From positions 9,162,501-9,226,500 of the forward strand of contig NZ_JAVDYC010000001.1 in NCBI RefSeq assembly GCF_031458255.1: a stretch of 64,000 nt of DNA, read 5' to 3'. Every line of letters begins with the position of its first letter. Within the stretch, counting starts at the first letter, position 1. This DNA is from Catenuloplanes niger. GTDB taxonomy: Bacteria > Actinomycetota > Actinomycetes > Mycobacteriales > Micromonosporaceae. The notes beneath the pieces were generated by a model. That model saw only the letters and a program-made list of their open reading frames with translations. It searched no databases and was not told the DNA's origin. Made by a program: the position numbers and the translations under genes. This document shows positions 13,863 through 44,701 of the stretch, in pieces.

Positions 13863-15569
<1,707 letters not shown>

Positions 15570-15629: not shown

Positions 15630-16853
15630 TCAGGCGAGCGGCAGGCGGACGGTGAACGTGGCGCCCTCGCCCGGTCGGCCGGCGGCCCGGACCGTGCCGC
15701 CGTGCTTCTCGACGACCTCGCGGACCAGCGCGAGCCCGATCCCGAACCCGGGGCGGGTGGACGTGCCGCGGTGGAAGCGGTGGAAGAGCCGCTCGGTGTC
15801 CGCCGGTGCGAGGCCCTGCCCGGTGTCCGCCACCTCCAGCACCGCGGTGCCGCCGGACGTGGTGGCGCGCACCAGGACCGTACCCCCGGGCGGGGTGTGC
15901 GCTAGCGCGTTGCCGACCAGTTCGCTCACCACCCGGCGCAGCGCGGACGGGATGCCCGGCACGGCCAGCGGCGCCGCCACGCCGTCCGCGACCAGCGTGA
16001 TCCCGCGGGCGGCCGCGCGTTCCGCGTCCTGCGAGACCGCGTCGCGGGCGAGCGCGGCCAGGTCGATCCGGGACGCGGTCGCCAGCCGGTCGTCCGCGCC
16101 GAGCCGGGCGGACAGCAGCAGGTCGTCGACGATCTCGCCGAGCAGCCGGGTGTTGCCGATCAACCGGTCCAGGTCGGTGCGGTGCTCCGGCGGCAGCGCG
16201 GGCCGGCGGGCCATCAGCTGGGCGCGGGTGTGCACCCGGGCGATCGGCGTGCGCAGCTCGTGGCTGGCGTCCGCGACGAACCGGCGCTGCCGGCTGAGCG
16301 CGTCGGCCAGCGGCGCCACCGACCGGCCGCCGACGAACAGGCCGGTGAGCACCGCGGTGACCAGGCCGATCGACTCGGCGACGCCGAGCGCGCGGAGCAG
16401 CAGGCGGCGGTCCGCGAGCTGGTACCGGGTGTCGAACACGGCCTGGACCGTGTCCGCGCCGCGGCGTTCGGTGAGCACCACGTAGACCGTGCCGTTGCGG
16501 GCGACCGTGACCTCCTGCGCACGGCCGGACCCGGCGACCGCGTCGAGCGCGTCGCGGAGCGGGAACCCCGGCGGGGGCGGTACGGCGCCGGTGTCCAGCG
16601 CGCCGCCGGAGAGCAGGATCAGCCAGGTGCAGCCGGGTGGCCCGCTCGGCACGCCGTGTTGCGCGTTCCAGTGCAGCTCGCGGCGGATCTGCACGTGCTG
16701 CCCCTGCACGAGCAGCGCGTAGGAGACGCCGCCGACCAGCGCGACCAGGCCGGCGACGACGAGCCCGGCGAGCAGCCCGATCTGCCGGCGGGCCCGGCTG
16801 ACGGCCCGGCGTTCGGCAACGGTCCAGCCGTCCCGCCGGACCGGGACGCTCAC
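15630..16853 (-). CDS. Sensor histidine kinase
   Basis: 407 residues. Two membrane helices (about 24-48 and 163-185) flank an extracytoplasmic domain of about 115 residues. A dimerisation domain with H-box RRFVADASHELRTPIARVHT follows (phospho-acceptor His in SHELRTP). The ATPase domain has N-box ELVGNALAHTPPGG, G1 DTGQGLAPAD and G2 PGFGIGLALV. No clear HAMP domain is seen. Its start overlaps the response regulator stop codon (ATGA). It is the last gene of the leftward arm of the ammonia-lyase cluster, so it may regulate or be regulated with it. Confidence 0.9.
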   Translation of the reverse strand: MSVPVRRDGWTVAERRAVSRARRQIGLLAGLVVAGLVALVGGVSYALLVQGQHVQIRRELHWNAQHGVPSGPPGCTWLILLSGGALDTGAVPPPPGFPLRDALDAVAGSGRAQEVTVARNGTVYVVLTERRGADTVQAVFDTRYQLADRRLLLRALGVAESIGLVTAVLTGLFVGGRSVAPLADALSRQRRFVADASHELRTPIARVHTRAQLMARRPALPPEHRTDLDRLIGNTRLLGEIVDDLLLSARLGADDRLATASRIDLAALARDAVSQDAERAAARGITLVADGVAAPLAVPGIPSALRRVVSELVGNALAHTPPGGTVLVRATTSGGTAVLEVADTGQGLAPADTERLFHRFHRGTSTRPGFGIGLALVREVVEKHGGTVRAAGRPGEGATFTVRLPLA

Positions 16854-17509
16854 AGCTCACCGAGCCGGTAGCCGAGCCCGTGCACGGTGCGGATCGCGGC
16901 CCGGCCGAGCTTGCGGCGCAGGTAGTAGACGTACGTGTCCACGATGGACGGCGCGGGCGCCTCGTCGAAGACCCGGCGGCGCAGCTCCGCGCGGGAGTGC
17001 ACGGTGGACGGCCGGGCCGCCAGGATGCGCAGCAGTTCGAACTCGCGCGCGGACAGCGGCACCCGGTCGCCGCTGGGCAGCACCGCGTCGCGCAGCGCCA
17101 GGTCGAGCAGGCCGCCGCCGATCCGCAGCGCCTCCGTGGCGTCCGCGGCGCGCCGGCACAGCGCGCGCAGCCGGGCACTCAGCTCGTCCAGGTCGAACGG
17201 CTTCGGCAGGTAGTCGTCGGCGCCGGAGTCGAGCCCGGCGATCCGGTCGTCGACCGCGCCGAGCGCCGTGAGCATCAGGGCTCTGGCCGGCACGGCCCGG
17301 GACCGCAGCCGGACGAGCAGGTCCAGCCCGTCGATCGCGGGCAGGCAGCGGTCGATGACCATCACGTCGTACGGCCGGCTGAGCCCGAGATGCAGGCCGC
17401 GATGCCCGTCCGAGGCGTGGTCGACGAGGTATCCCTCGCCGGCCAGCGCCTCGGTCAGGGTGCCGGAGAGATCGGCGTCATCCTCGACCAGCAACAGGCG
17501 GTGCGGCAT
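16850..17509 (-). CDS. OmpR-type response regulator
   Basis: 219 residues: a receiver domain with acidic pair EDD near residues 8-10, phospho-acceptor Asp in VMVIDRCLPAIDGLDLL, Thr in ALMLTALGAVDDR and Lys in DDYLPKPFDLDEL; then a winged-helix DNA-binding domain with LSAREFELLRILAARP, VDTYVYYLRRKLG and GLGYRLGEL. I chose ATG 17509 because a longer start would add a non-family, AT-rich leader. It partners the overlapping kinase. The 49-bp gap to the antiporter stop is unusually AT-rich and may hold a separate promoter. Confidence 0.9.
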   Translation of the reverse strand: MPHRLLLVEDDADLSGTLTEALAGEGYLVDHASDGHRGLHLGLSRPYDVMVIDRCLPAIDGLDLLVRLRSRAVPARALMLTALGAVDDRIAGLDSGADDYLPKPFDLDELSARLRALCRRAADATEALRIGGGLLDLALRDAVLPSGDRVPLSAREFELLRILAARPSTVHSRAELRRRVFDEAPAPSIVDTYVYYLRRKLGRAAIRTVHGLGYRLGEL

Positions 17510-17558
17510 GCGAAGAGAATGGCACAATTCAATCAGGCAATGACAGTGGTAAATGTCT

Positions 17559-18830
17559 CTAGCTTCGGAGGGAACCAACAACGGGTGCCGGCGAAACCGG
17601 GATCGCCCGTCCCGCCTCGCGCCGCTCGATCCAGGACAGCAGCGGCGTCGTCATCAGCGTGGTCACCAGCGCGACCAGCACCAGCGCGGTGAACAGCGCC
17701 GGGCCGACGATCCCGGCCTCCAGTCCCACGTTCAGCGCGATCAGCTGCATCAGGCCGCGCGCGTTCATCAGCGTGCCGACGCGCAGCGCGACCGGCTGCG
17801 GCTCGCCGCGCAGCCGGGCCGCGGCCCAGCAGCCGCCGAACTTGCCGGCCACCGCGACCGCCACGCAGGCCAGCGCGAACAGCAGCACGACCGGGTCGGA
17901 CAGCAGCGCGAACTCGGTGCGCAGCCCGGAGAACGTGAAGAACAGCGGCAGGAACACGATCTGGCAGATCGGGTTGAGCGTGTTCACCACGCTCTCGGTC
18001 CGCTCGGTGCGCGGCATGACGGCGCCGACCGAGAACGCGCCGAACACCGCGTAGAGGCCGATCTCGTCCGTGTACCAGGCGATCAGGAACAGCAGCGCGA
18101 CCGTGCCGAGCAGCCGCCCGGAGTCGCCGATCCGGTCGCCGGTCATCAGCAGCCGGGCGGCCGGGCGGGCGCCGTACCGGATCAGGACGCCGAAGAACGC
18201 GGCGCCGCCGATCGTGACCAGCGCGGGCAGCACGGCACCGGACGCGACCGCGAGCACGCAGGCGAGCAGCAGCCAGGCGACCCCGTCGTCGATCGCGCCG
18301 GCGGCCAGCGAGACCGCGCCGTGCCGGGTGCCGGCGTGCCCCTTCTCCGTGATGATCCGCGCCATCATCGGGAACGCGGTGATGGCCAGCGCCACGCCCA
18401 CGAACGCGGCGGACACGCCGATCGGGACGCCGTCCTCGAGCACCGCGACGCGGTCGCCGGTGAGCAGCACCAACAGCACGCCGAGCGCGAGCGGCACGGC
18501 CACCCCGGCGGCGGAGACCGCGCCCGCGGTGCCGGCCAGCCCGTGGATGCGGTGCGAGCGGAACGCGTACCCGGCCTGGAACATGAAGATGACCAGGCCG
18601 ACCTGCCCGATCACGTACAGCACCGGGTAGAGGTCGGGCGGGAACAGCGCGGCCTGCACGTCCGGCAGGAACAGGCCGAGCAGCGACGGGCCGAGCAGCA
18701 CCCCGGCCAGCATCTCGCTGACCACGGCCGGCTGACCGGCCCGGCCGAGCAGCCACGAGACTCCCCGGCAGAAGAGCAGGATGACGGCGACCGCGACGAA
18801 GAACCGCGGCGCCAGGTCGACGGGACTCAC
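17559..18830 (-). CDS. Cation/proton antiporter of the CPA2 family
   Basis: 423 residues with about twelve membrane helices. Family features include the GRAGQPAVVSEMLAGVLLGP opening, DGVAWLLLA in the middle (the Asp expected for ion binding) and the late MNARGLMQLIALNVGLEAGI motif typical of Na+(K+)/H+ antiporters. There is no C-terminal nucleotide-binding (TrkA) domain. The GTG at 18830 overlaps the P450 stop codon and its ribosome site (AAGGGGAGG) lies inside the P450's last codons, so it is coupled to the cluster. Its role could be pH or ion homeostasis, or export coupled to the pathway. Confidence 0.88.
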   Translation of the reverse strand: MSPVDLAPRFFVAVAVILLFCRGVSWLLGRAGQPAVVSEMLAGVLLGPSLLGLFLPDVQAALFPPDLYPVLYVIGQVGLVIFMFQAGYAFRSHRIHGLAGTAGAVSAAGVAVPLALGVLLVLLTGDRVAVLEDGVPIGVSAAFVGVALAITAFPMMARIITEKGHAGTRHGAVSLAAGAIDDGVAWLLLACVLAVASGAVLPALVTIGGAAFFGVLIRYGARPAARLLMTGDRIGDSGRLLGTVALLFLIAWYTDEIGLYAVFGAFSVGAVMPRTERTESVVNTLNPICQIVFLPLFFTFSGLRTEFALLSDPVVLLFALACVAVAVAGKFGGCWAAARLRGEPQPVALRVGTLMNARGLMQLIALNVGLEAGIVGPALFTALVLVALVTTLMTTPLLSWIERREAGRAIPVSPAPVVGSLRS

Positions 18831-20170
18831 AGGCCTCCCCTTTCGAAGTGGGTGGTGCACAACCGCTGCCGCCGCGCGTCGACCACCATCACGGTGCCCA
18901 GCACCAGCTGGGTGAGACTCCGGCCGACGTCCGCCCACCGGTCGCGGAACCGCATCGCGGCCAGCCGGGTCCGGCCCGGCGGGCGGGCGCCGGACGGGGT
19001 CAGGAAGCACGGGCCGCGCGACGGCAGCGACCGGGTGTGCGCGACGGACGAGGCGAGCGTGTGCCGGCGCAGCACCTCGCGGACCGCGGCGCGCAGCATC
19101 ACCGGCGCGGAGCCGCGGGCCGGGCAGGCCCGGTTCGCGACCACGCCGAACGGGATGAAGTGCGCGTCCCGCCGCCGCAGCGCGCGCCACCGGTCCGGGT
19201 CGAACGCGTCGTCCGCGGCCGGGCCGGTGCGCTGGTAGGCGAGATAGTTGAACAGCAGCACGGAACCGGCCGGGAGCGTGACGTCCGGGGTGACCTCGAT
19301 CGGCGCGGACGTGATCCGGTGCGCCACGCCGAAGAGCGGGTGCACCCGCAGCGTCTCGTCGATGATCCGGTCCAGCTCGTCGTCGTCCCGGGTGCCGAGC
19401 ACGCCGGGGTGCCGGGCGATCGCGAGCAGCACGTGCGCGGCGGCCTCGGACATCTGCACGACCGCGGTGTTGAAGAACGCGCCCTGCAGGTACCACGCGG
19501 TCTCCTGCGCGGTGAACGGCGGCGGCAGCGTGACCGGCGCGGTCCCGTCCTCGACCCGGCCGCGTAGGTACCGGGTGAGCCGGTCCCGCCGGTCCAGGTG
19601 CCGCAGCCCGCAGCACTTCAGCGCCGTGACCACGTCGTCCGCGTTCGCCACGATCATGGCGCGCACGTCCGGCGGGCAGTCCTCGCCGAAGACCAGCTCG
19701 TGGTAGACCTCGGCCCAGACCGGCATCATCGCGTCGCGCAGCCGCACGTGGGCGGTGCGGCCGGCCGGCAGCGTGTCCAGCATGCGCCGGGTCGCGGCCG
19801 TGGCCAGCTCGTCGGCGCGCGCGTGCGGCACGGCCAGGATCCGCCGGCTGGCCCGGGCGACCGTGGTGTAGCGCTCGCCGGGTTCCAGGTGCTCCTGGTG
19901 CATCTGCGGGCCGGGCGCGAGCCAGTACCAGAACAGGTCGGACAGCCCGGCACCGCGGCTGCGCCCGTCCGCGGCCGGATGCTCGTACACGCGCTGGAAG
20001 TGCTCGGCGCCGACCAGCGGGCCCGGCACCGGCACGCCCTCGGTCCCGTTCACCCGCGCGAAGATCCACTCCCGGAGCCGCACCACCGTGGCCGGCAGCC
20101 ACCGGGGCAGGGACCACACGCCGAGCAACAACGACAGCAACAGCAGCAGCGGTACGGCGGGCGCGGTCAC
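18827..20170 (-). CDS. Atypical membrane-anchored cytochrome P450-like protein
   Basis: 447 residues from a GTG overlapping the upstream stop codon (GTGA). A Leu-rich hydrophobic N-terminus (residues 6-36) suggests a membrane anchor, unusual for bacterial P450s. The K-helix ExxR is present (DETLR, Glu272/Arg275), as is the DPDRW segment. The heme loop FIPFGVVANRACPARG places the presumed thiolate Cys349 one residue further from Phe341 than the FxxGxxxCxG signature and has Val for the Gly. The I-helix GAFFNTAVVQMSEAAAHVLL lacks the acid-alcohol pair of oxygen-activating P450s. It may therefore use peroxide, perform an isomerase/dehydratase-like reaction or have lost activity. Confidence 0.8.
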   Translation of the reverse strand: MTAPAVPLLLLLSLLLGVWSLPRWLPATVVRLREWIFARVNGTEGVPVPGPLVGAEHFQRVYEHPAADGRSRGAGLSDLFWYWLAPGPQMHQEHLEPGERYTTVARASRRILAVPHARADELATAATRRMLDTLPAGRTAHVRLRDAMMPVWAEVYHELVFGEDCPPDVRAMIVANADDVVTALKCCGLRHLDRRDRLTRYLRGRVEDGTAPVTLPPPFTAQETAWYLQGAFFNTAVVQMSEAAAHVLLAIARHPGVLGTRDDDELDRIIDETLRVHPLFGVAHRITSAPIEVTPDVTLPAGSVLLFNYLAYQRTGPAADDAFDPDRWRALRRRDAHFIPFGVVANRACPARGSAPVMLRAAVREVLRRHTLASSVAHTRSLPSRGPCFLTPSGARPPGRTRLAAMRFRDRWADVGRSLTQLVLGTVMVVDARRQRLCTTHFERGGL

Positions 20171-21174
20171 GGCCGCACCTCGCGCAGCAGGTCCGGCGTG
20201 AGCTCCGCGAGCGTGGCCGCGCCGCACAGCGCCATCACCCGCACCACGTCCTCGTGCAGCCGGCGCAGCACCGTGGCGACGCCGTCCCGGCCGCCCGCCG
20301 CCAGCCCCCAGATCACCGGCCGTCCGATCAGGACCGCCGTGGCGCCGCGGGCCAGCGCGGTGACCACGTCGGTGCCCCGCCGGACGCCGCCGTCCAGCAG
20401 CACCGGGACCCGGCCGCGGACCGCCTCCGCCACGGCCGGCAGCGCGTCGATCGAGGCGACCGCGCCGTCCAGCTGCCGGCCGCCGTGGTTGGAGACGATC
20501 ACGCCGTCCAGGCCGCGGGCCACCGCCTCGGCCGCGTCCGCCGGGTGCAGCACGCCCTTGACCAGGATCGGCAGCCGGGTCACGGCGCGCAGCCGCAACA
20601 CGTCGTCCCAGCCGAGCGACGGGTCCAGCACGATGTCCCGGACCCGGCCGGTCACCGGGTCGCGCAGGTTCTCGCACGCCAGCCCGGACGGCAGGTCCAG
20701 GAAGCCGTTGCGCAGGTCGCGTTCGCGGCGGCCGAACACCGGCGAATCCACGGTCACCACCAGCGCGGTCACGCCGGCCGCGGCCGCGCGCCCGGCCAGG
20801 TGCGCGGTGAAGTCCCGGTCCGGCTGCGGGTAGAGCTGGAACCACAGCCGCGCGCCGGTGCCCGCGATCTTCTCGATCGGCGTGGTCGCGGCCATGCTGA
20901 CCGTCATGACCGTGCCGGTGTCCCGGGCCGCGTGCGCGGTGGCGGTCTCGCCGTCCGGGTGGGCGAGCCGGTGGAACGCGGTCGGCGCGATCAGCACCGG
21001 GCCGGGCAGCACGGTGCCGAACAGCGTCAGGCGCGGATCCGGCACGCCGGTCGCGCGCAGCACCCGGGGGAGCAGCCGCAGCCGGTCGAACGCGGTCTCG
21101 TTGGCGTGCACGGTCCGCTCGTCGCCCGCGCCGCCGGCGAAGAAGTCCCGGTGCACCGGGTCGAGGCCGGCCAC
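20167..21174 (-). CDS. FMN-dependent alpha-hydroxy acid oxidase/dehydrogenase
   Basis: 335 residues, slightly shorter than the usual 350-390. The TIM-barrel family motifs are intact: WFQLYP, VTVDSP, Lys206 in LPILVKGVLHPADA, the active-site His230 and Arg233 in VSNHGGRQLDG, and the phosphate-binding LLDGGVRRGTDVVTALA. Members oxidise lactate, glycolate, mandelate or 4-hydroxymandelate to the keto acid. In this operon an aromatic hydroxy acid is plausible, since 4-hydroxymandelate oxidases belong here. The GTG at 21174 leaves a 5-bp gap to the flavoprotein stop codon; no better start gives the family N-terminus. Confidence 0.88.
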   Translation of the reverse strand: MAGLDPVHRDFFAGGAGDERTVHANETAFDRLRLLPRVLRATGVPDPRLTLFGTVLPGPVLIAPTAFHRLAHPDGETATAHAARDTGTVMTVSMAATTPIEKIAGTGARLWFQLYPQPDRDFTAHLAGRAAAAGVTALVVTVDSPVFGRRERDLRNGFLDLPSGLACENLRDPVTGRVRDIVLDPSLGWDDVLRLRAVTRLPILVKGVLHPADAAEAVARGLDGVIVSNHGGRQLDGAVASIDALPAVAEAVRGRVPVLLDGGVRRGTDVVTALARGATAVLIGRPVIWGLAAGGRDGVATVLRRLHEDVVRVMALCGAATLAELTPDLLREVRP

Positions 21175-21179
21175 GGTGC

Positions 21180-22739
21180 TCAGGCCGCGAGCCGGTCGGC
21201 GACGAACGCGCGCAGCGGCGCGACGTGCACGTCCGGCCGGTCCCAGCGGTTCTCCAGGTTCTCCGCCAGGTGATGGACGCCGCCCGGCGCGCCGTCCCGG
21301 TAGTAGCGGACCACCGGGTGCAGGTAGGCCGCGTCGTGCGCCACACCGGGCGTGTCCTGCGCGATCCGGGACACCTCGATGTCGAACGGGTCCACCGTGT
21401 CGTGGTCCGGGCCGTACTCCAGCGTGACCACGAACGCGTGCGCGGCCGGGCCCAGCCCGCCCTCCCGGTGATGGGCAACCGGCACCTCCTCGTGATACGC
21501 GGCGCCGGAGTCCGACACCGTCACCACGTCGCCGAGCACGCCGAACTGCTGCCACAACCCGGACGAGCGGTTCACCCGGGCGATGATCGCACCGGTGACC
21601 GCGGCCGGGTCCGGCGACAGCGCCGCCGCCGGCCACGGCACCCCCGCGTACCGGCGGCGAAGGATCCGGTGCAGCGCGCGCACCGTGTAACGGAAGCCGT
21701 GGATGAAACCGTTGGTGGACTTCTTGAAGTCGCGCTCCTGGCTGAGCGTGCCCGCGACGAACAGGCCCGGCACGTCGACCGACTCGAACGCCGGGGTCTG
21801 CGCCGGGAAACGATCCTTGATCACCAGCGCGGGGCGGGCGGCGGCGTCGAAGATCGAGGCGTCGAACGCGAAACCGGTGCAGGCGATCACCCGGTCGTAG
21901 CGTAGCTCTTTGACCAGCTCGTTCGCCCGGGAGAACGCGAACGCGACGCGGAATCCGTCCGCGTCCTTCTCGATGCCGCGGACCGTGCCGTCCAGCACCG
22001 CGTTCGCGGACTTCAGCTGGTACGTGTCCAGGAAGTTGTTGTTCACGGCGCGCAGGTGCCCGACGTAGTGGGTGCGCCACGCCATCCGCACCGGGCTCGG
22101 CCCGGCCACGTGGATCAGCGTGGTCGTCTCCATCAGCGCGTCCGCGGTCTCGAACGCGGAGTTGCCCTTGCCGATGATCAGCACCCGCTGGTCCCGGTAG
22201 TCCCTCGGGTCGGTGGAGATGTCCGCGTAGTTCTCGGCCAGCTCGATGCCGGGGATCTCGGTCGCCCGGTACGGCCGGGACACACCGGTCGCGACGATCA
22301 GCGCCCGCCCGCGCCACACGTCGCCGCGCTGGTCGGTCACCTCGAACACGCCGTCGTCCGCGCGGCCCACCCGGACCGCCTCGGTGTCGTAGCGGATCCG
22401 GTGGGCCAGCGGGGCCGCCACGTCCGCGAGGTAGCGCACCATGTCGTCCGCGTGCGGGAAGTAGCGTTCGCTGTAGCGGGTGAAGCGCAGCGCCGGATCG
22501 TCGGTCAGCAGCGAGTTCCAGTCGAACCGCAGGTTCAGTTCCGGGTCGTCGGACCCGGTCCGCGGCTTGTTGATCGAGATCAGCGTCCGGTGCCGCGGGT
22601 AGCGGGTGAAGAAGGCACCGGGCGCCGCGGCCCGCTCCAGCACGAGATGGTCGTCGCCACTCGCCTCCAGCAGGGTGGCCAGCTGCAGCCCCGCCGGCCC
22701 GGCACCGAGGATGAGGTAATCGCGCGTCGCTTCGGTCAC
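21180..22739 (-). CDS. FOXRED2-like FAD/NAD(P)-dependent oxidoreductase (copy 1)
   Basis: 519 residues with two dinucleotide folds: GAGPAG at 12-17 for FAD and GKGNSA at 190-195 for NAD(P). Between and after them lie long conserved stretches (RYPRHRTLISINK, WNSLLTDDPALRF, THYVGHLRAVNNNFLDTYQLK, FIHGFRYTVRALH, LHPVVRYYRDGAP). From memory these match the eukaryotic ER flavoprotein FOXRED2 more closely than classic Baeyer-Villiger or N-hydroxylating monooxygenases. The reaction is unknown. About three quarters of positions look identical to the second copy at 24296. It starts 11 bp after the ammonia-lyase stop codon and belongs to the same transcript. Confidence 0.85.
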   Translation of the reverse strand: MTEATRDYLILGAGPAGLQLATLLEASGDDHLVLERAAAPGAFFTRYPRHRTLISINKPRTGSDDPELNLRFDWNSLLTDDPALRFTRYSERYFPHADDMVRYLADVAAPLAHRIRYDTEAVRVGRADDGVFEVTDQRGDVWRGRALIVATGVSRPYRATEIPGIELAENYADISTDPRDYRDQRVLIIGKGNSAFETADALMETTTLIHVAGPSPVRMAWRTHYVGHLRAVNNNFLDTYQLKSANAVLDGTVRGIEKDADGFRVAFAFSRANELVKELRYDRVIACTGFAFDASIFDAAARPALVIKDRFPAQTPAFESVDVPGLFVAGTLSQERDFKKSTNGFIHGFRYTVRALHRILRRRYAGVPWPAAALSPDPAAVTGAIIARVNRSSGLWQQFGVLGDVVTVSDSGAAYHEEVPVAHHREGGLGPAAHAFVVTLEYGPDHDTVDPFDIEVSRIAQDTPGVAHDAAYLHPVVRYYRDGAPGGVHHLAENLENRWDRPDVHVAPLRAFVADRLAA

Positions 22740-22750
22740 GAGAGGCGACG

Positions 22751-24232
22751 CTAGGCAGCACGATTCAGAAAAAACTCAGCCGTCAGGTCCGCGGCGCGCC
22801 GGACGTCGCCGTCGAGCGGCCGGTCCGGGTCGACCGGCGGGATCGCGTGCTCCAGCCGGTCGAGCAGCGCCGCGCAGGCCGGTGCGGTGGGCTGCCGGGC
22901 GCCGACGTGCGCGGCCTGGCGCAGGCCGAGCGCGAGCGAGCCGCACAGCAGGTGCAGCAGCCCGGCCCCGTCGTAGGCGCGCAGCGCGGCCTGCGTACCG
23001 AACGGCACCACGTCCTGGTTGTGCAGGTTCGTCGGCAGGCTCTGCACGCTGGCCGGCGTCGCGTCCCGCCGCAGCTGCGCGACGAACGCGGTGGTGGCCA
23101 GCTGCACGCCCTGCAACCCGTGCTGCTGCCCCGGCCCGGCCGCCAGCATCGGTGGCAGGCCGGTGTTGCGGGCCGGGTCGACCAGCAGGTCCAGCTGCCG
23201 TTCCGCGAGCGTGCCGAGCTGGGCGGTGACCGCGGCCAGCAGGTCCGCGGCGAACGCGGCCGGCTGGCCGAAGAAGTTCCCACCGTGCACCACGCCCTCG
23301 CCCGGGAACAGCAACGGGTTGTCGCTGACCGCGCGCAGATCCCAGGCGACCACGCCGTCGACATAGGACAGCGCGTCCTCGGCGGCGCCGAGCAGCTGGG
23401 GCGCGCAGCGGATGCTGTACGGCTCCTGCAGCGGGCGCGTCCCGGACGGCGCCGCACCGGCCAGCCGGGACCGCATGCGGGCGGCGACCACGGCCGCGCC
23501 CGGGTGCGCGTACGCCGCGATCAGCCGCGCGTCCAGGAACTGCGGGTCGCAGCCGAGCAGGTCGGCCAGCAGCGCGGTCAGGTGCTGCAGCGCGTGGTGC
23601 GAGCGGCGGACCGCGTGCTGGGCGAGCGCGAGCGCGGCCGTGGTCACCGAGACGCCGTTGACCAGCGCGAGCGCGTCCCGGCCGTCCAGCGTCAGCGGCG
23701 TCAGGCCGGCCTGCGCCAGCGCCACCGCGGCCGGCAGCCGCTCACCGGACAGGTAGGCGTGGCCGCGGCCGCGCAACGCCTGCGCCGCGTAGGCGAGCGG
23801 GATCAGGTCACCGGACGCGCCGACCGAACCGTACCGGGGCACGGCCGGCGTGAAACCGGTGCCGAGCGCGGCGGCCAGCGCGTCGATCACGTGCGGGGAC
23901 ACGCCGGACAGGCCGCGGGCCAGCGAACCGGCCCGGACCAGCAGCGCGGCCCGGACCAGCGGCACCGGCAGATCCGGGCCCTGACCGGCGCCGAGGTGGG
24001 CGAGCGTGTTGTCGGCCTGGTCCGCGTCCGTGGCTCGGCCGGCGTAGCCGACCAGCGCGCCGAAGCCGGTGGTCTGGCCGTAGATCGGGGTGTCGCCGTT
24101 GCGGGACTCGGCGAGGAAGCGGCGGCCGGCGGCGACGGACTCCCGGACCGGCGCCGGGACGTCCACCGGGATCGGCGCGGCGGCCGCGTGCAGGTCGTCG
24201 GCGGTCAGCGGCCCGGGCAGCGAGATCGGCAT
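22751..24232 (-). CDS. Aromatic amino acid ammonia-lyase (HAL/PAL/TAL family), tyrosine-type
   Basis: 493 residues, the size of bacterial HAL/TAL enzymes. The MIO cofactor triad is Ala139-Ser140-Gly141 in VGASGDLIPLA. The catalytic Tyr51 lies in IYGQTTGFGAL. QEPYSIRCAPQLLG and the NFFGQP region are conserved. The selectivity pair aligns at His79-Leu80 (NTLAHLGAG); in characterised enzymes HL goes with tyrosine, FL with phenylalanine and SH with histidine. No hut genes are nearby. Expected reaction: tyrosine to p-coumarate plus ammonia, or a tyrosine aminomutase, which shares the fold. First gene of the leftward operon; the last 10 codons are unusually AT-rich at third positions. Confidence 0.85.
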   Translation of the reverse strand: MPISLPGPLTADDLHAAAAPIPVDVPAPVRESVAAGRRFLAESRNGDTPIYGQTTGFGALVGYAGRATDADQADNTLAHLGAGQGPDLPVPLVRAALLVRAGSLARGLSGVSPHVIDALAAALGTGFTPAVPRYGSVGASGDLIPLAYAAQALRGRGHAYLSGERLPAAVALAQAGLTPLTLDGRDALALVNGVSVTTAALALAQHAVRRSHHALQHLTALLADLLGCDPQFLDARLIAAYAHPGAAVVAARMRSRLAGAAPSGTRPLQEPYSIRCAPQLLGAAEDALSYVDGVVAWDLRAVSDNPLLFPGEGVVHGGNFFGQPAAFAADLLAAVTAQLGTLAERQLDLLVDPARNTGLPPMLAAGPGQQHGLQGVQLATTAFVAQLRRDATPASVQSLPTNLHNQDVVPFGTQAALRAYDGAGLLHLLCGSLALGLRQAAHVGARQPTAPACAALLDRLEHAIPPVDPDRPLDGDVRRAADLTAEFFLNRAA

Positions 24233-24252
24233 GCGCGAAGGCTAGGGAGCGC

Positions 24253-24273
24253 TTCTCAGAACGGTTCTGAGAA
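24253..24273. promoter_or_regulatory. Perfect palindromic operator between the divergent cluster arms
   Basis: The arm TTCTCAGAAC and its exact complement flank one central G. Each arm also holds a small palindrome, TTCTCAGAA and TTCTGAGAA, so the site can equally be read as two direct copies of TTCTSAGAAC 12 bp apart. It lies in the 63-bp gap between the start codons at 24232 and 24296, where both promoters must be. Either a dimeric repressor or an OmpR-type regulator such as one of the two cluster regulators could bind it. Confidence 0.75.
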
Positions 24274-24295
24274 CCCGCCACTAGCGTCGCCCGGC

Positions 24296-25840
24296 ATGAC
24301 GCGCGACTACCTGATCATCGGTGCCGGTCCGGCCGGCTTGCAGCTCGCCGCGCTGCTGGACCGCGACGGGCGGGACTTCGCGGTGCTGGAGGCCGGCCCG
24401 GCGCCCGGCACGTTCTTCACCACCTACCCCCGGCACCGGCAGCTGATCTCCATCAACAAGGTCTACACCGGGCACCCGGACCCGGAGCGGAACCTGCGGA
24501 TGGACTGGAACTCGCTGCTGACCGACGACCCGGCGCTGCGCTTCGGCAACTACAGCCGCCGCTACTTCCCGGCCGCGGACGACCTGCTGCGCTACCTCGC
24601 GGACTTCGCGGCGCCGCTGGCCCACCGGATCCGCTACGACACCGAGGTGGTCCGGGTGTCCCGCGCGGACGGCGTCTTCGTGGTCGAGGACGCCGCCGGC
24701 ACCGTGCACCGGTCCCGCGCGCTGGTGGTCGCGACCGGCGTCCCGAAGCTCCACGTGCCGCCGATCCCGGGCGCGGAGCTGGCCGAGCGCTACGACACGG
24801 TCAGCGTGGACCCGGCGGACTTCACGAACCAGCGGGTGCTGATCATCGGCAAGGGCAACTCCGCGTTCGAGACCGCGGACGCGCTGCTGGAGACGACCGC
24901 GGTCACCCACGTGGCCGGGCCGCACGCGGTGCGCTTCGCCTGGCAGACGCACTACGTCGGGCACCTGCGGGCCGTGAACAACAACTTCCTGGACACGTAC
25001 CAGCTGAAGTCCGGCAACGCGGTGCTGGACGGCACGGTCGAGCGGATCGAGGCGCGACCGGACGGCGGGTTCCGGGTCGAGTTCCGCTACGCCCGCACCC
25101 GTGAGGCGGTCCGGGTGCTGCACTACGACCGGGTCGTGCTGTGCACCGGCTTCCGCTTCGACGCCTCGATCTTCGACGCGAGCGCCCGCCCGGCCCTGGT
25201 GATCGACGACCGGTTCCCGGAACAGACGCCCGCGTTCGAGTCGGTGAACGTGCCCGGCCTGTTCTTCGCGGGCACGCTCACCCAGCAGCGCGACTTCAAG
25301 AAGTCGACCAGCGGCTTCATCCACGGCTTCCGGTATGCGGTGCGCGCGCTGCACCGCATCCTGGCCCACCGGTACGAGCGGGCGCCGTGGCCCGCGACCG
25401 CGCTCTCCCGGGACGCGATCAGCGACGCGATCATCGCCCGGGTCAACCGCTCCTCCGGCCTGTGGCAGCAGTTCGCCGTGCTCGGCGACGTGATCACGGT
25501 GACGGACGCCGGCGCGGCCTACCACGAGGAGGTTCCGGTGGCCTACCACCGCGACGGCGGGCTGGGCACGCCCGCGCACGCGTTCGTGGTCACGCTCGAG
25601 TACGGCCCGGACCACGACACGGTCGACCCGTTCGACATCACCGTGCCGCGGATCGCGGAGAACGACCCGCTCGCCGCGCACGACGCCAGCTACCTGCACC
25701 CGGTCGTCCGGCACTACCGCGACGGCGCGCCGGCCGGCGAGCACCACCTGGCGGAGAACCTGGAGAACGAGTGGGACCTGCCCGCGGTGCACCGGATGCC
25801 GCTGGAGGTCTTCGTGAAGGAGCGCCTCGCGGATGGCTGA
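24296..25840 (+). CDS. FOXRED2-like FAD/NAD(P)-dependent oxidoreductase (copy 2)
   Basis: 514 residues, the clear paralogue of the protein encoded at 21180-22739 with the same motif order: GAGPAG near residue 9, TTYPRHRQLISINK, MDWNSLLTDDPALRF, GKGNSAFETADALLE, THYVGHLRAVNNNFLDTYQL, GFIHGFRYAVRALHRIL and LHPVVRHYRDGAP. It differs mainly in surface positions and the C-terminus. Heading the rightward operon while its twin lies in the leftward operon, it may act on a different intermediate or form a heterodimer. The stop codon overlaps the CoA ligase start by 8 bp. The reaction is unknown. Confidence 0.85.
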   Translation: MTRDYLIIGAGPAGLQLAALLDRDGRDFAVLEAGPAPGTFFTTYPRHRQLISINKVYTGHPDPERNLRMDWNSLLTDDPALRFGNYSRRYFPAADDLLRYLADFAAPLAHRIRYDTEVVRVSRADGVFVVEDAAGTVHRSRALVVATGVPKLHVPPIPGAELAERYDTVSVDPADFTNQRVLIIGKGNSAFETADALLETTAVTHVAGPHAVRFAWQTHYVGHLRAVNNNFLDTYQLKSGNAVLDGTVERIEARPDGGFRVEFRYARTREAVRVLHYDRVVLCTGFRFDASIFDASARPALVIDDRFPEQTPAFESVNVPGLFFAGTLTQQRDFKKSTSGFIHGFRYAVRALHRILAHRYERAPWPATALSRDAISDAIIARVNRSSGLWQQFAVLGDVITVTDAGAAYHEEVPVAYHRDGGLGTPAHAFVVTLEYGPDHDTVDPFDITVPRIAENDPLAAHDASYLHPVVRHYRDGAPAGEHHLAENLENEWDLPAVHRMPLEVFVKERLADG

Positions 25841-27296
25841 CCGGCCGTACCCCGGCGTGCTGCTGGATCTGCTGCGCGCGGCCGGCGACCGGGTCGTCTT
25901 CGAGGAACCGGACCGGGTGACCACCGGCGCGCAGCTGCTGGCGCTGACCGGCCGGATCGGCGGCGGGCTCGCGCGGGCCGGCATCAAGCCCGGCGACGGC
26001 GTGGCGCTCGCGGTCGGCGTCACGGCCGAGGCGCTCGCCACCGTGCTCGCGGCGCACGCGGCCGGCGCGCGGGTGACCGGGATCCGGCCCGGCCTGCCCG
26101 GCCGGCACCTCGCGCACGTGCTCGGCCAGGGCGACGCGGCCGTGATCGTGGACGCGGGCCGGGCCGCGTCGGTGCCCGCCGTGCCGCACCTGCGCACCGT
26201 GGCGTCGCTGCGGGACGGCCCGGACGAGGAGCCGGTGCCGCTCGCGCGGCCGGACGACATCGCACGGGTGATCCACACCAGCGGCAGCACCGGACTGCCG
26301 AAAGGCGCGCTGCAGACCTACGCCGCGCTCGCCGCCGGCTGGGCACCGCACCCGGAACGGTGGCCGCTCGCGCTGCGCCGGCTGGCCCCGCGGCTCGGCC
26401 GGCACCTGGTCTTCGGCACGCTCGCCAGCCAGGTGATGTTCGAGTACGGCACGATGGCGCTCGCGGCCGGCGGCACGCTGGTCGCGGCGGCACCGGACCT
26501 GCCCGGCGCGATCATCCGGCACCGCGCCACGTCCACCGTGATCACCGTGCCGAAGCTGCGGGCCGTGGTGGCGGCGGCCCGCGCGGCCCGGGCCGGCCCG
26601 GCGACGCTGCGCGCGTTGATGGTGTCCGGGTCACCGCTCGACCCCGCGCTGCTCGCCGAGGCGCTGGACGTGCTCGGCCCGGTGGTCTTCCACGGGTACG
26701 GGCAGACCGAGGCCGGCATGATCTCGATGGCGGCGCCGGAGGAGATGGCGGACCCGCGGGTGCGCGCCTCGGTCGGCCGGCCGCCGGCGGAGAACACGGT
26801 CGAGATCCGGGACGCGGCCGGCCACCCGGTGCCGCCCGGCGACATCGGTGAGGTGTTCGTCCGCACGCCCGTGCAGGCCTGCGGCTACCTCGGCGACCCG
26901 GCGGAGAGCGCCGCGGTCTTCACGGACGGCTGGGTGCGCACCCGCGACCTCGGCCGGGTCGACCCGGACGGCTATCTGCACCTGGCCGGCCGCACCCGCG
27001 ACGTGATCATCGTGAACGCGAACGTGCAGTACGCGGTCCCGATCGAACGGGTCCTCGCGGCCCACCCGTCGGTCGCGGAGGCGTGCGTGGTGGGCGTGCC
27101 GTCCGCGGCGACCGGTGAGGCCGTGCACGCGTACGTCGTACCGGCGGCGGGGGACCTCGATCTGGCCCTGCTGCGCGGCCTGGTCCGCGCGGAACTGGGC
27201 GCGGACGCGGTACCGGACCGGATCACCGTGATCGACCGGGTGCCGCTGACCCCGGCCGGGAAACCGGACCGGGACGCGCTCCGCCGGTGGACGTAA
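25833..27296 (+). CDS. AMP-binding acyl-CoA ligase
   Basis: 487 residues of the ANL superfamily. The P-loop motif is VIHTSGSTGLPKGAL (about 147-161). Further motifs are HGYGQTEAGMISM, GWVRTRDLGRVDPDGYLHLAGR and the A10 lysine in PLTPAGKPDRDALR. The protein is compact, with a short N-terminal subdomain, like benzoate/coumarate-type ligases. It would activate a carboxylic acid to its acyl-AMP and CoA thioester. In this context p-coumarate from the ammonia-lyase is the natural guess. No acyl carrier protein or ketosynthase is nearby to use the product. ATG 25833 overlaps the preceding gene. Confidence 0.85.
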   Translation: MADRPYPGVLLDLLRAAGDRVVFEEPDRVTTGAQLLALTGRIGGGLARAGIKPGDGVALAVGVTAEALATVLAAHAAGARVTGIRPGLPGRHLAHVLGQGDAAVIVDAGRAASVPAVPHLRTVASLRDGPDEEPVPLARPDDIARVIHTSGSTGLPKGALQTYAALAAGWAPHPERWPLALRRLAPRLGRHLVFGTLASQVMFEYGTMALAAGGTLVAAAPDLPGAIIRHRATSTVITVPKLRAVVAAARAARAGPATLRALMVSGSPLDPALLAEALDVLGPVVFHGYGQTEAGMISMAAPEEMADPRVRASVGRPPAENTVEIRDAAGHPVPPGDIGEVFVRTPVQACGYLGDPAESAAVFTDGWVRTRDLGRVDPDGYLHLAGRTRDVIIVNANVQYAVPIERVLAAHPSVAEACVVGVPSAATGEAVHAYVVPAAGDLDLALLRGLVRAELGADAVPDRITVIDRVPLTPAGKPDRDALRRWT

Positions 27297-27330
27297 GGAA
27301 TCCGAAAGACCCGGGGCCGGCCGCGCTGGG

Positions 27331-27336
27331 TAGCCT
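27331..27336 (+). promoter_or_regulatory. -10 element TAGCCT, leaderless
   Basis: TAGCCT followed by 7 nt and GTG 27344. It suggests that the two-component genes can be transcribed separately from the CoA ligase upstream. Confidence 0.4.
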
Positions 27337-27343
27337 GACCCGG

Positions 27344-28045
27344 GTGGGACACCTGGTGCTGGTCGTCGACGACGATCCGATCGTCAGCGACGTCGTGCGG
27401 CGCTACCTGGAGCAGGACGGCTGCGAGGTGCGGCTCGCCGCCGACGGCGCGGCCGGCCTGGCCGCGATCGAGGCGCGTCGGCCCGACCTCGTCGTGCTCG
27501 ACCTGATGATGCCGGGCGTGGACGGCCTCGAGGTCTGCCGCCGGCTGCGGCGTGACCTGCCCGATCTGCCGGTCGTCATGCTGACCGCACTCGGCGAGGA
27601 GGCCGACCGGGTGCTCGGCCTGGAGGTGGGCGCGGACGACTACGTCACCAAGCCGTTCTCGCCGCGCGAGCTGGTGCTGCGCATCCGGTCCGTGCTGCGC
27701 CGCACCACCGGGTCCGCGGCCGGCGCGCCGGACGGGCCGGCCGTGCTCACCGACGGCGACCTGGTGGTCGACACCGCGCGCCGGATCGTCACCCGCGGCG
27801 GCGCGCCGCTGTCGCTGACCGTGCGCGAGTTCGACCTGCTGGCGTTCCTGCTCGGCAGCCCCGGCCGGGCCTGGTCCCGCACCGACCTGCTGAGCCGGGT
27901 GTGGGGCTGGCGGTTCGGCGACCAGTCGACCGTGACCGTGCACGTCCGCCGGCTGCGGGAGAAGATCGAGGACGACCCGGCCGCGCCGCGCCGCATCCAC
28001 ACCGTCTGGGGCGTCGGCTACCGCTACGAGACGGCCGGCGGATGA
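27344..28045 (+). CDS. OmpR-type response regulator
   Basis: 233 residues: receiver domain [20 protein letters not shown] with the acidic pair, phospho-Asp in [16 protein letters not shown], Thr in [13 protein letters not shown] and Lys in [13 protein letters not shown]; winged-helix domain with [35 protein letters not shown] and VWGVGYRYE. Upstream in-frame starts exist, but GTG 27344 has ideal leaderless spacing and starts at the domain. It overlaps its kinase by ATGA. It is the second response regulator of the divergent cluster, not closely similar to the one at 16850. Confidence 0.9.
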
Positions 28046-29064
28046 CCGACCTGCTGCTGATCGGCGGGTACGCGTTGCTGGCCGGCGGCGTCGTCGGTGC
28101 CGGCGGAGCGCTGGCCCTGCGCCTGCTGCGCGGCCGGTCGATCCTGGTGCACATCGTGCTGCTGCTGGCCGTCACCGTGCTCGCGGTCGTCGCCGGCGTG
28201 GTCACGGTCGCCTACGCGATGTTCCTGTCCGGCCACGACCTGAGCGTCGTGCTGGTCACGGTCGGCGCCTCGGCCGTGGTCAGCCTGCTCGTCGGCGGCC
28301 TGTTCGGGCGCCGGCTGGCCGCGGCCGCGGTCTGGGCCCGCGCGGCCCGTGACCGGGAACGCCGGCTGGAGGCCGGCCGCCGGGAGCTCGTCGCCTGGGT
28401 CTCGCACGACCTGCGCACGCCGCTGGCCGGGCTGCGCGCGATGGCGGAGGCACTCGAGGACGGCGTGGTCGGCGACCCGGCCACCGCGGCCGAGTACCAC
28501 CGGCGCATCCGGGTCGAGGCGGACCGGATGACGCAGCTGGTCGACGACCTGTTCGAGCTGTCCCGGATCAACGCGGGCGCGCTGCGGCTGGCGCTCACCG
28601 CCGTACCGCTGCGGGATCTGGTCTCGGACGCGCTGGCCGGGGTGGCGCCGCTGGCCGTGAGCCGCCGGATCACGCTGGACGCGCTGGAGACGGGCTGGCC
28701 GGTCGTGCACGCCTCGGAACGGGAACTGGCCCGGGTGATCAGCAACCTGCTGGTCAACTCGGTGCGGTACACGCCGGCCGGCGGCACGGTCCGCGTCGAG
28801 GCGGGCCGGGACCACGCCGACGTGTGGCTCGCGGTCTCCGACACCTGCGGCGGCATCCCGGAACCGGACCTGGCCCGGGTCTTCGACGTCGCCTTCCGCG
28901 GTGAGCGGTCGCGCACCCCGGACCCGGCGCACACCGGCGGCGGCCTCGGGCTGGCGATCGTCCGCGGGCTGGTCGAGGCGCACGGCGGACGGGTCGGCGT
29001 GCGCAACACCGGGGGCGGTTGCCGGTTCGAGGTGCGCCTGCCGGCCGCCGTCATCGAACGGTAA
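28042..29064 (+). CDS. Sensor histidine kinase
   Basis: 340 residues. Three hydrophobic segments occupy the first 100 residues with almost no extracytoplasmic loop, so sensing is probably within the membrane. The H-box is [20 protein letters not shown] (His in SHDLRTP), the N-box [19 protein letters not shown], then [15 protein letters not shown] and [19 protein letters not shown]. It pairs with the overlapping regulator and is followed 36 bp later by a DM13 protein, a linkage that hints at redox or oxygen sensing. Confidence 0.9.
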
Positions 29065-29100
29065 GGGTCGGTGCCGGCCGGCGTGCGATCTACTGAGGAC

Positions 29101-29688
29101 ATGCTGATCCGACTTCTTCGCGCGCCGGCGACCTGGGCCGTGGCAGTGTGCCTGACGGTCGTCGCCGGAGCCGCCCTCTACTGGTTCCAGCCCTGGAAGG
29201 CGTTCACCGACCGTGAGGTGAACGACCGGCTCGCGGCCGTCCCGGCACCCATGACGTCCGCGGCACCGATGATGTCCGGGGAACCGATGATGTCCGGGGA
29301 GCCGATGACGCCGACGGCGCCGCCGGCGGGGCCGGTGGTCGTGCGCCAGGGCACGTTCATCAGCCACGAGCACGCGACCGAGGGCAGCGCCCGCGTCGTG
29401 CGCCACCCGGACGGCTCGCACACGCTCGAGATCGTCGGCCTCGACACGTCCGACGGCCCCGACCTGCGGGTCTGGCTCTCCGACCAGCCGGTCCGTCCCG
29501 GCACCGGCGGCTGGTACGTCTTCGACGACGGCGACCGGGTGGAGCTCGGCGCGCTCAAGGGCAACCGGGGCGACCAGACGTACGACATCCCGGCCGGCAC
29601 CGACCTGGACGACCTCGGCAGCGTCGCCATCTGGTGCATCCGGTTCTCCGTGTCGTTCGGTGCGGCCGCGCTCACACCCGCGGGCTGA
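29101..29688 (+). CDS. Membrane-anchored DM13-domain protein
   Basis: 195 residues from ATG 29101, preceded by GAGGAC. One N-terminal membrane helix (about 11-30) is followed by a Met/Pro-rich linker with an 18-bp repeat (APMMSGEPMMSGEP) and a DM13 domain: GTFISHEHATEGSARVVRHP, LEIVGLDTSDGPDLRVWLSD, and a late WCIRFSVSFGAA with the conserved Cys. DM13 domains have been proposed to take part in extracytoplasmic redox or hydroxylation reactions. Position after a two-component pair suggests it is their target or an accessory sensor. Confidence 0.8.
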   Translation: MLIRLLRAPATWAVAVCLTVVAGAALYWFQPWKAFTDREVNDRLAAVPAPMTSAAPMMSGEPMMSGEPMTPTAPPAGPVVVRQGTFISHEHATEGSARVVRHPDGSHTLEIVGLDTSDGPDLRVWLSDQPVRPGTGGWYVFDDGDRVELGALKGNRGDQTYDIPAGTDLDDLGSVAIWCIRFSVSFGAAALTPAG

Positions 29689-30581: not shown

Positions 30582-30660
30582 TCTCTCCCTGGATGAAGTC
30601 GGCCTTCAACCGGTGATCGCCCCCGGACACCATTGATCCGTCGAGGACGGGAGGTGGACG

Positions 30661-44334: not shown

Positions 44335-44545
44335 AGATATGGTGTTGCACGCAGCTGGTTCGGGCGGCGTGGAAACGTGGCGTCCGAGGCAAGAGGGAAC
44401 CCGGTGTGAGTCCGGGACTGCCCCGCAGCGGTGAGTGGGAACGAAAGCCGTCACAAGCACTGGGTGTCGTCACAGGCGCCTGGGAAGCGACGGCCGGTAG
44501 GCGACCGGCACGGTCACGCCCGCGAGTCCGAAGACCTGCCAGCGC
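44335..44545 (+). promoter_or_regulatory. Cobalamin riboswitch
   Basis: The conserved core is clear: GAGGCAAGAGGGAACCCGG, GTGTGAGTCCGGGACTGCCC, CGCAGCGGTGAGTGGGAACG, GAAAGCCGTCAC, then the CTGGGAAGCGACGGCCGGTA segment and the B12 box GAGTCCGAAGACCTGCC ending near 44540. It precedes the class Ia ribonucleotide reductase genes. In Streptomyces, coenzyme B12 shuts off the class Ia nrdABS operon through such a riboswitch, letting the B12-dependent class II enzyme take over; the same is expected here. Confidence 0.93.
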
Positions 44546-44575
44546 ACCGCGTCGCCCCTCGGGGGAGGCGCGGTG
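44545..44575 (+). terminator. Probable riboswitch expression-platform hairpin
   Basis: CACCGCG and CGCGGTG close a long GC stem around CGCCCC/GGGGG immediately after the B12 box. It is placed to act as the terminator that forms when cobalamin is bound. Confidence 0.5.
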
Positions 44576-44701
44576 GTCCGAGGCCGCGCGGGACGGCCGA
44601 CGCCGACCAGCCGCTGCGGCCGCGATCCACGCGTGCCCGGTGGTGGCCTGCGCCCGCGCGGCCCCGGACCCTGTCGAGGGATTCGGACTCGCGAGGAGCG
44701 A

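Follow-up and report, generated by a model that had tools for sequence, protein, structure and literature searches.

A nine-gene ammonia-lyase, flavoprotein and P450 cluster of Catenuloplanes niger: a candidate for an undescribed p-coumarate-derived oxidative pathway under one response-regulator box

The question raised by the stretch of Catenuloplanes niger DNA analysed here (the window, 64,000 nucleotides of contig NZ_JAVDYC010000001.1, positions 9,162,501 to 9,226,500, in a 9.74-Mb genome that forms one contig) is what is made by, and what holds together, a group of genes that diverge from one 63-bp gap at 24233-24295 and combine an aromatic ammonia-lyase and an adenylate-forming ligase with two flavoproteins, a flavin mononucleotide (FMN)-dependent oxidase and a P450-fold protein. 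The answer proposed is that nine of these genes, which many soil actinobacteria share, form a regulon for a specialised oxidative pathway, which in our reading is p-coumarate-derived and undescribed. Conservation and regulation are well supported, the product and the chemistry of the pathway are what we infer, and the proposal as a whole, with all of the steps set out below, is one that we consider probable without being secure.

Open reading frames (ORFs), codon-position G+C content and Pfam matches place twelve genes around the gap, with the families, strands and 63-bp gap that a sequence-only reading of the window had given; that reading counted eleven genes, whereas its own list totals 12. 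The same arrangement recurs in other genomes, so the layout is not due to chance. On the minus strand, leftward from the gap, lie the genes for an aromatic ammonia-lyase with a methylidene-imidazolone (MIO) tripeptide (22751-24232; Pfam Lyase_aromatic, 426 bits), predicted to be of tyrosine type; flavoprotein A, which binds flavin adenine dinucleotide (FAD) and nicotinamide adenine dinucleotide (phosphate) (NAD(P)H) by prediction and adjoins the oxidase and P450 genes in most loci (21180-22739; Pyr_redox_3, 148 bits); an FMN-dependent L-alpha-hydroxy acid oxidase (20167-about 21183; FMN_dh, 400 bits); a divergent P450 with an N-terminal transmembrane (TM)-like segment (18827-20170); an antiporter of the Na_H_Exchanger family (17559-18830; 156 bits); and, by Pfam, an OmpR/PhoB-family response regulator, RR1, whose start codon is uncertain (16850-17581), and a sensor histidine kinase, HK1 (15630-16853), in which hydropathy shows a short segment separating two TM-like stretches. 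On the plus strand follow flavoprotein B, a lyase-associated paralogue (24296-25840; Pyr_redox_3, 146 bits), an adenylate-forming ligase of coenzyme A (CoA) or amide-bond type (25833-27296; AMP-binding, 172 bits), a second response regulator (27287-28045), a second histidine kinase whose ORF (27901-29064) overlaps it, and a DM13 protein (29071-29688).

Which of the twelve belong together was judged from gene order in other genomes. In a same-order comparison of 20 stretches from 19 genomes (18 of the same family), located through the flavoprotein, eight same-family genomes (G001, G002, G003, G007, G018, G032, G057 and G082) share the divergent layout of the window, with the ligase and flavoprotein B on one side and the lyase, flavoprotein A, FMN oxidase, P450, antiporter and RR1-HK1 on the opposite one; insertions interrupt it in two of the eight, between lyase and flavoprotein A in G002 and between antiporter and RR1 in G032. 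The two halves of the cluster lie on separate contigs in G027, while of the remaining ten genomes five (G023, G024, G094, G086 and G015) hold a partial set without a linked lyase and five a distant (42-45%) flavoprotein only. The second two-component pair and the DM13 gene follow the ligase in the window and in just one of the eight full-layout relatives (G003). A one-genome-per-species scan with a profile of the P450 returned 331 relatives, and among the best 80 loci by score, which were retained, the DM13 protein is matched in none and the second response regulator in one (L097, 45% identity), some of these loci ending too early to tell; in G019 (L056) similar second two-component and DM13 genes stand together about 4 kb from a 43%-identical flavoprotein, with the rest of the cluster absent. 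Because the second pair and DM13 are not conserved, the boundary is set at 15630-27296, and we take the unit to be the nine genes within it, so that the claim of a single unit made in the sequence-only reading holds for these nine and falls for the second two-component system and DM13.

The 80 loci also suggest how the unit is composed. That every locus has the P450 is uninformative, this having been the query, and since some loci reach a contig edge (L085, L120 and L136, for example) the absences are upper limits. The lyase occurs in 41 loci, every one of which also has the FMN oxidase, RR1 and HK1; the antiporter and the ligase are each found in 38, and two flavoprotein matches in 39, among them L078, in which flavoprotein B is a 35-residue remnant only. 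The three lyase loci without a ligase match (L059, L076 and L089) all end inside flavoprotein B. In the 39 lyase-free loci the FMN oxidase is present in 38 and a flavoprotein in 35, with lower counts for the antiporter (22), RR1 (22), HK1 (21) and ligase (14). By record title the lyase loci come from Micromonosporaceae genera and Cellulomonas, and the lyase-free loci from Actinomadura, Nonomuraea, Kibdelosporangium, Nocardia, Streptomyces and others. Clustering of neighbouring ORFs of at least 80 amino acids gave three groups common to at least six of the 80 loci, the first of them sulfotransferases, and the idea of a further conserved gene was dropped with this result. We read the flavoprotein-oxidase-P450 trio, widespread without the lyase, as the core of the cluster, a point absent from the sequence-only reading, and the lyase, flavoprotein B and ligase as an apparent add-on module.

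The association of lyase and P450 exceeds what independent distribution would give. In a sample of 394 genomes of the class, window genome included, the P450 profile (E 1e-80) is matched in 13 and the lyase profile (E 1e-150) in nine, and both are matched in seven (the window again included) from three families, where 0.3 would be expected if they were independent, kinship being uncorrected; together with the layout in 41 of the 80 loci, this puts the co-occurrence that the sequence-only reading had anticipated well beyond independence. Six of the genomes have the P450 alone. The two with the lyase alone, G203 and G538, encode proteins 61% and 56% identical, and these look like lyases of another type because no cluster gene lies nearby except one 32%-identical ligase-like match.

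The regulation of the nine genes centres on the gap, which holds TTCTCAGAACGGTTCTGAGAA. At 24253-24273 lies a perfect 21-bp palindrome, the inverted operator TTCTCAGAAC-G-GTTCTGAGAA, which the sequence-only reading had missed. It is the sole match in the window at up to three mismatches, and its full half-sites with the 5-base spacer have one exact site in the 9.74-Mb genome, the next best having two mismatches. On each side a -10 box stands 9 nt from the half-site, TAGCCT for the leftward promoter (24239-24244, minus strand) and TAGCGT for the rightward one (24282-24287, plus strand), and both are so near the start codons that the two divergent messages are probably leaderless. Across 39 gaps between lyase and flavoprotein B (the window and 38 other loci), TCTCAGA-N4/5-TCTGAGA is present in all 39 with at most two mismatches of 14, and in all 39 it is inverted. 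Of the 78 sides, 73 have the pattern TAnnnT outside the half-site at a distance of exactly 9 nt, and no other offset within the 20 nt scanned shows it; 34 of the 39 gaps have it on both sides (shuffled expectation 0.0001). Beyond these gaps, the core is perfect in the unlinked modules of L150 and L151, has one mismatch in ten in L165 and L166 and one mismatch in L149, and is present in degenerate versions in the Cellulomonas ligase/lyase gaps of L075 and L096.

The lyase-free loci indicate which protein is likely to use this box. There the half-site is usually repeated in the same direction, at a period of 11 bp, ahead of the trio flavoprotein; boxes of PhoB type have this geometry, with direct 7-bp half-sites at an 11-bp period beside the -10. 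A box with at most one mismatch in ten lies upstream of the trio flavoprotein in 18 of the 21 lyase-free loci with RR1 versus two of the 15 without it (Fisher 2e-5), and a direct or inverted box was found at 4 of 382 control ORFs. The test covered 40 loci, some of them close kin, of which L119, L125, L132 and L136 were dropped for want of a flavoprotein match; L120, one of the 15 without RR1, offers 2 nt of upstream sequence only. The box is missed despite RR1 in L118, L126 and L137 and present without RR1 in L106 and L121, and since a single scored base separates the direct from the inverted form, L105 and L117, both among the 18, fit the inverted reading better. Five loci picked by eye (L060, L065, L073, L074 and L077) have a third half-site, spaced exactly 11 bp from its neighbour. 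A PhoB-type direct repeat was also sought in the window genome, and none was present at up to one mismatch. RR1 thus very likely binds the gap box, and since the direct repeats of lyase-free loci occur mainly where the response regulator is linked it probably activates both divergent promoters.

Loci in which the genes have been rearranged bear on the same point. The REARRANGEMENT test brought out three genomes of a different family (L158, L159 and L160) with a new gene order: flavoprotein B-ligase, then antiporter-P450-oxidase-flavoprotein A, with the lyase divergent from flavoprotein A, and HK1-RR1. L158 and L159 have the full set of nine; L160 has no match to the antiporter, and its flavoprotein A scores as the paralogue. 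With no or one mismatch in ten, the box recurs at two places, the flavoprotein B promoter and the lyase gap, and that the genes have been reshuffled while the box is kept at each promoter is strong evidence for one regulon. The claim of one co-regulated set governed from a single 63-bp control gap is in this way supported, by the box in 39 of 39 gaps and by its retention at the promoters after rearrangement.

The module itself appears to have a history of its own. A FastTree analysis of 130 flavoproteins places the 45 lyase-side copies in a single group (local support 98). A larger clade of 91 rows (support 100) joins these to the trio copies of lyase loci and has a single additional member, the lyase-free L101; read most simply, flavoprotein B arose by duplication of the trio flavoprotein and has accompanied the lyase from then on. 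In the 40 rows that hold all four proteins, lyase distances correlate with those of flavoprotein B at r 0.88 and with those of the P450 at 0.67. Four unlinked lyases (L150, L151, L165 and L166) are 85-87% identical to the Phytohabitans lyase (L068), which suggests that the lyase-ligase-flavoprotein module has been transferred between genomes. A complete, unlinked ligase-flavoprotein B/lyase divergent module with its own box is present in G152 and G166, and a complete unlinked module in two more genomes, G200 and G339; in other unlinked loci the lyase and flavoprotein B are frame-split (G155) or flavoprotein B is broken (G023) or missing (G171). A single branch, weakly supported (6), separates the cluster lyases from the rest of the lyase tree.

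The first enzymatic step is the one most readily assigned. The MIO tripeptide of the lyase (A139-S140-G141) and its His79-Leu80 pair are each invariant in 10 of 10 rows, and phmmer aligns the pair with His89-Leu90 of the tyrosine ammonia-lyase (TAL) of R. sphaeroides, which agrees with the aromatic amino acid substrate, probably tyrosine, proposed from sequence earlier; the enzyme is probably of TAL type. Among solved structures, 2o78 is presumably the His89 variant of that TAL. The structure nearest to the lyase, 2o6y, bears the PDB label 'putative histidine ammonia-lyase', and we take it to be R. sphaeroides TAL itself, in agreement with the printed alignment and with PMC8773403, the accessible part of which covers the role of His89. 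An assignment to the bagremycin/ferroverdin lyases was rejected on the NCBIfam model BagA_FevW (213 against a cut-off of 1000).

The oxidative enzymes are more divergent. Only the C-terminal half of the P450 aligns by sequence with solved P450s; an AlphaFold2 model (mean predicted local distance difference test score, pLDDT, 73.9; predicted template modelling score, pTM, 0.78; residues 337-352, the haem loop, below 50) has the P450 fold by structure comparison, and 16 of the 50 listed structural matches have CYP152 or OleT-type titles, level with CYP17 and CYP51. The ExxR motif and haem ligand are retained (Glu272 in 87 of 88 relatives, Arg275 and Cys349 in 88 of 88), and Asn346-Arg347, Pro350-Ala351, Thr235 and His91-Gln-Glu-His94 are invariant in the same 88, as is Cys349; at a position of our own assignment, 84 of 88 have Asn234 where an acid is usual. 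The canonical haem loop is FxxGxRxCxG. That of the window protein, P-F/Y-G-V-x-A-N-R-x-C-P-A, is non-canonical, being one residue longer before the Cys than in CYP11B2 and having no Gly two after it, and sequence and model together point to a divergent P450-fold protein rather than a canonical monooxygenase. No redox partner is encoded in the P450 operon, the genes in both window operons abutting or overlapping so that there is no room for a ferredoxin gene between them; elsewhere the search covered ORFs of at least 80 amino acids, so that small partners could be missed. The FMN oxidase is nearest to hydroxy-acid and lactate oxidases, with Lys214, His238, Arg241, Asp151, Tyr123 and Arg160 (numbering of the 343-residue read) near-invariant over 79 rows; we take these to be the expected catalytic residues. 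The flavoproteins have nucleotide-binding domains and weak similarity to monooxygenases and thioredoxin-type reductases, their PDB matches being weak (best E 7.7e-07); the label FOXRED2-like is that of the sequence-only reading.

The mechanism that we propose begins with steps that are well supported: HK1 would signal to RR1, and RR1 would bind the gap box and activate both divergent promoters at -35, in a PhoB-type geometry with one half-site flipped to serve both sides, whereupon the nine genes would cooperate as a core (flavoprotein, hydroxy-acid oxidase, P450, antiporter and two-component system) and an add-on module. The lyase would then deaminate L-tyrosine to p-coumaric acid, which is probable from residue identity. 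From this point the chemistry becomes more conjectural: the ligase would adenylate p-coumaric acid and transfer it to CoA or an amine, oxidation of the side chain by the flavoprotein and P450 could give an alpha-hydroxy acid, which the FMN oxidase could convert to an alpha-keto acid with release of H2O2, which the P450 may use, and the antiporter (in some relatives a carrier of the major facilitator superfamily, MFS) might export the product or balance ions. The peroxide idea is raised because a putative H2O2-forming oxidase adjoins a P450 with an altered oxygen-activation region. Its fullest form is a peroxide-recycling pair in which the P450 would alpha-hydroxylate an aryl acid with H2O2 that the FMN oxidase returns on making the keto acid, specialised in one lineage for tyrosine-derived acids by the mobile lyase-ligase-flavoprotein module, under an OmpR-family box that switches between direct and inverted forms; in that form we think it very unlikely. 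In the accessible part of PMC7431475, engineered cascades use a P450 peroxygenase to make the alpha-hydroxy acid and then dehydrogenases, not an oxidase.

Two of the alternatives turn on the ligase. Its nearest solved chains are, in order, 6sq8/6h1b, 8pyy/8ppp/8pyx (presumably ShABS) and the feruloyl-CoA synthetase 8wev. What we take to be K483 of McbA fits the 6sq8/6h1b chain at an offset of 3. The same constant offset fits D201, E221, Q394 and E400, given for McbA in the accessible parts of PMC6282839 and PMC10804368, and on this ground the two chains are identified as McbA. The sequence-only reading supposed a pathway from tyrosine to a cinnamoyl-CoA with a true CoA ligase and one unit of all twelve genes; in its favour are AMP-binding domains with an intact adenosine triphosphate (ATP) loop and an ATP-site lysine (Lys477) in 63 of 63 rows, 8wev among the near relatives, and a lyase of tyrosine type. 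The residue count covered rows of at least 42% identity and at least 1100 bases. At the position of the CoA-ligase catalytic His, which is His207 of 4-chlorobenzoate CoA ligase in the accessible part of PMC10804368, the window ligase has Gln200, however, the lyase-locus rows have Gln in 44 of 46 (with one Leu and one His), and 17 other rows have Met, Ala, Pro or Gln. Without this His the activation with CoA is doubtful, whereas the adenylating part of the earlier ligase assignment stands; and the second two-component pair and DM13 adjoin the cluster in one of eight full-layout relatives only. We lean against this version, while counting it a real possibility. The ligase might instead be an amide bond synthetase that joins p-coumarate, or an oxidation product of it, to an amine, the trio then oxidising the amide; McbA is by residue concordance its best solved match, but the column of McbA Asp201 is Gln in the ligase, which also does not share the acidic entrance residues E221 and E400, and the similarity is modest, which leaves us doubtful of it.

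Two further alternatives touch the purpose of the cluster and the first enzyme. A catabolic or detoxifying role, in which a plant-derived phenolic acid is sensed outside the cell and the lyase merely feeds or tunes the system, would suit the trio's occurrence without the lyase, the short segment between the TM-like stretches of HK1 and the aromatic-ring hydroxylase gene that adjoins HK1 in the window. Such clusters usually have ring-cleavage or beta-oxidation genes, however, and of the three neighbour groups found in at least six of 80 loci the identified one is the sulfotransferases; the making of p-coumarate from tyrosine would also be pointless if it were meant for breakdown, and this role appears unlikely. 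That the lyase is an aminomutase giving beta-tyrosine rather than p-coumarate is conceivable because MIO lyases and mutases share fold and sequence, and tyrosine aminomutase 2rjr is among the nearest solved relatives, but R. sphaeroides TAL scores 231 against 219 bits for the aminomutase, a small difference, and the NCBIfam mutase model reaches 267 against a cut-off of 501; we consider it highly improbable. Akazaoxime/enteromycin was rejected as the product, that pathway being, in the accessible part of PMC9967187, a non-ribosomal peptide synthetase (NRPS)/polyketide synthase (PKS) system from glycine, leucine and propionate.

A number of observations weigh against the nine-gene oxidative pathway as proposed. 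Among the entries with the P450 but no linked lyase (40, from 38 distinct genomes, two having been entered twice), a cluster-type lyase is encoded elsewhere in only five of the 38 genomes (G023, G152, G155, G166 and G171; in G177 a 59% relative looks like the other type), so p-coumarate is not necessarily the substrate of the trio. L129 and L169 (Nonomuraea solani and N. gerenzanensis), in which flavoprotein and P450 stand together and the oxidase is absent, weaken the peroxide link, as do three Acrocarpospora loci (L119, L125 and L132) without the flavoprotein. CYP152 peroxygenases carry Arg-Pro in the I-helix, and this pair is not found in the corresponding helix of the window P450 (221-252, which holds FFNTAVVQ). 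Flavoprotein B is lost or broken in L075, L096, L078 and L149, and the NCBIfam models that score highest against the lyase describe histidine ammonia-lyases, at 346 and 334 bits, both below cut-off. On the regulatory side, the short core TCAGA-N4-TCTGA has three other exact sites in the genome (G000:C1:1121783, 4122834 and 6112472), a box could not be recognised in three lyase gaps, those of L047, L152 and L153 (2-3 mismatches in ten), and TAnnnT, sought within 20 nt after the direct-repeat boxes, was found in none of 18. None of the counts given here carries a correction for kinship.

The surroundings of the cluster vary. In the window HK1 has as its same-strand neighbour an aromatic-ring hydroxylase gene (FAD_binding_3 and Rng_hyd_C; 13863-15269). 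L043 and L061 have a 39% match next to HK1 and L039 has fragments there, but the gene is not generally conserved. Two tandem MmyB-like regulators (29757-31272) directly follow the DM13 gene. Further away, in the region 44339-48140, a cobalamin riboswitch (89.5 bits) directly precedes the large subunit of a ribonucleotide reductase with an ATP cone (44573-47110), which is followed by the small subunit (47046-48140); control of ribonucleotide reductase genes by B12 is known in actinobacteria. A search for a defence system with PADLOC returned three weak matches only, the best at 23.9 bits. Among the loci compared the nearest named relative is Catenuloplanes japonicus. Loci of Nonomuraea and Actinomadura encode a Sulfotransfer_4 protein beside the ligase, and those of Acrocarpospora encode one between the oxidase and the P450 (L104, L119 and related loci); other loci have an MFS carrier or DUF6282 protein after the P450. 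The trio of Kibdelosporangium and an Actinosynnema strain (L108, L116, L122 and L128) lies near ORFs like the ruvA, ruvB and secD of L108, a housekeeping region, the identity of these ORFs in L116, L122 and L128 being judged by size and order. Some records call for caution: one titled Rhodococcus rhodnii NRRL B-16535 nearly matches the gene layout of Kibdelosporangium aridum (L108/L112), so that its title may be wrong; NZ_LT559118.1 (Nonomuraea gerenzanensis, 11.85 Mb) is listed as a plasmid though it is chromosome-sized; and the start of the lyase gene in L093 (Actinoplanes liguriensis) contains what we liken to a library-preparation transposon end (adapter), probably an assembly artefact.

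Within the open-access literature, most subscription journals and MIBiG lying outside the search, no description was found of this gene combination, of the P450 subfamily or of the box, which leaves the claim of an undescribed pathway standing; each enzyme superfamily is known, and the combination is an uncharacterised actinobacterial specialised-metabolism cluster. A small, portable pathway without PKS or NRPS may escape standard cluster mining, though relatives of its P450 occur at 331 places. The P450 family is far, by sequence, from any solved structure, an apparently single OmpR-family site occurs naturally in direct and inverted form, and the predicted RR1-box switch makes the pathway directly testable; its product, once found, could name a new class of actinobacterial phenylpropanoid chemistry.

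Set beside known systems, the cluster resembles each in part. The lyase shares with R. sphaeroides TAL the MIO tripeptide and the His-Leu selectivity pair and differs in its setting, with two flavoproteins and a P450. Lyases 56-63% identical to it are found in S. clavuligerus pSCL4 and three other genomes outside such clusters; the pSCL4 gene (L170, 8932-10362; 63% identity) is flanked by long ORFs with AMP-binding-like matches and carries no annotation in its record. As far as the accessible part of PMC4640377 goes, the S. clavuligerus naringenin pathway (tal, ncs and ncyP) likewise joins an ammonia-lyase and a P450 in an actinobacterium, but it has a chalcone synthase, its tal lies apart from ncs-ncyP, and its TAL has Tyr105 where the window lyase has His; that tal is SCLAV_5457, found with EncP (37% identity), and we do not equate the pSCL4 lyase with it. 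McbA and the 4-coumarate and 4-chlorobenzoate CoA ligases have the same adenylating-enzyme domains and ATP-site Lys, whereas the window ligase lacks both the CoA-ligase His and the McbA Asp. With the CYP152 peroxygenases (P450BSbeta and OleT) the P450 shares its fold and many tied structural matches, yet it has no Arg-Pro in the I-helix, another haem loop and a TM-like N-terminus, and CYP17 and CYP51 match it equally. The box, finally, agrees with those of PhoB and OmpR in its 7-bp half-sites, 11-bp period and place next to the -10, as seen here in the direct repeats of lyase-free loci, and departs from them in the lyase-bearing divergent gap, where it is inverted instead of direct.

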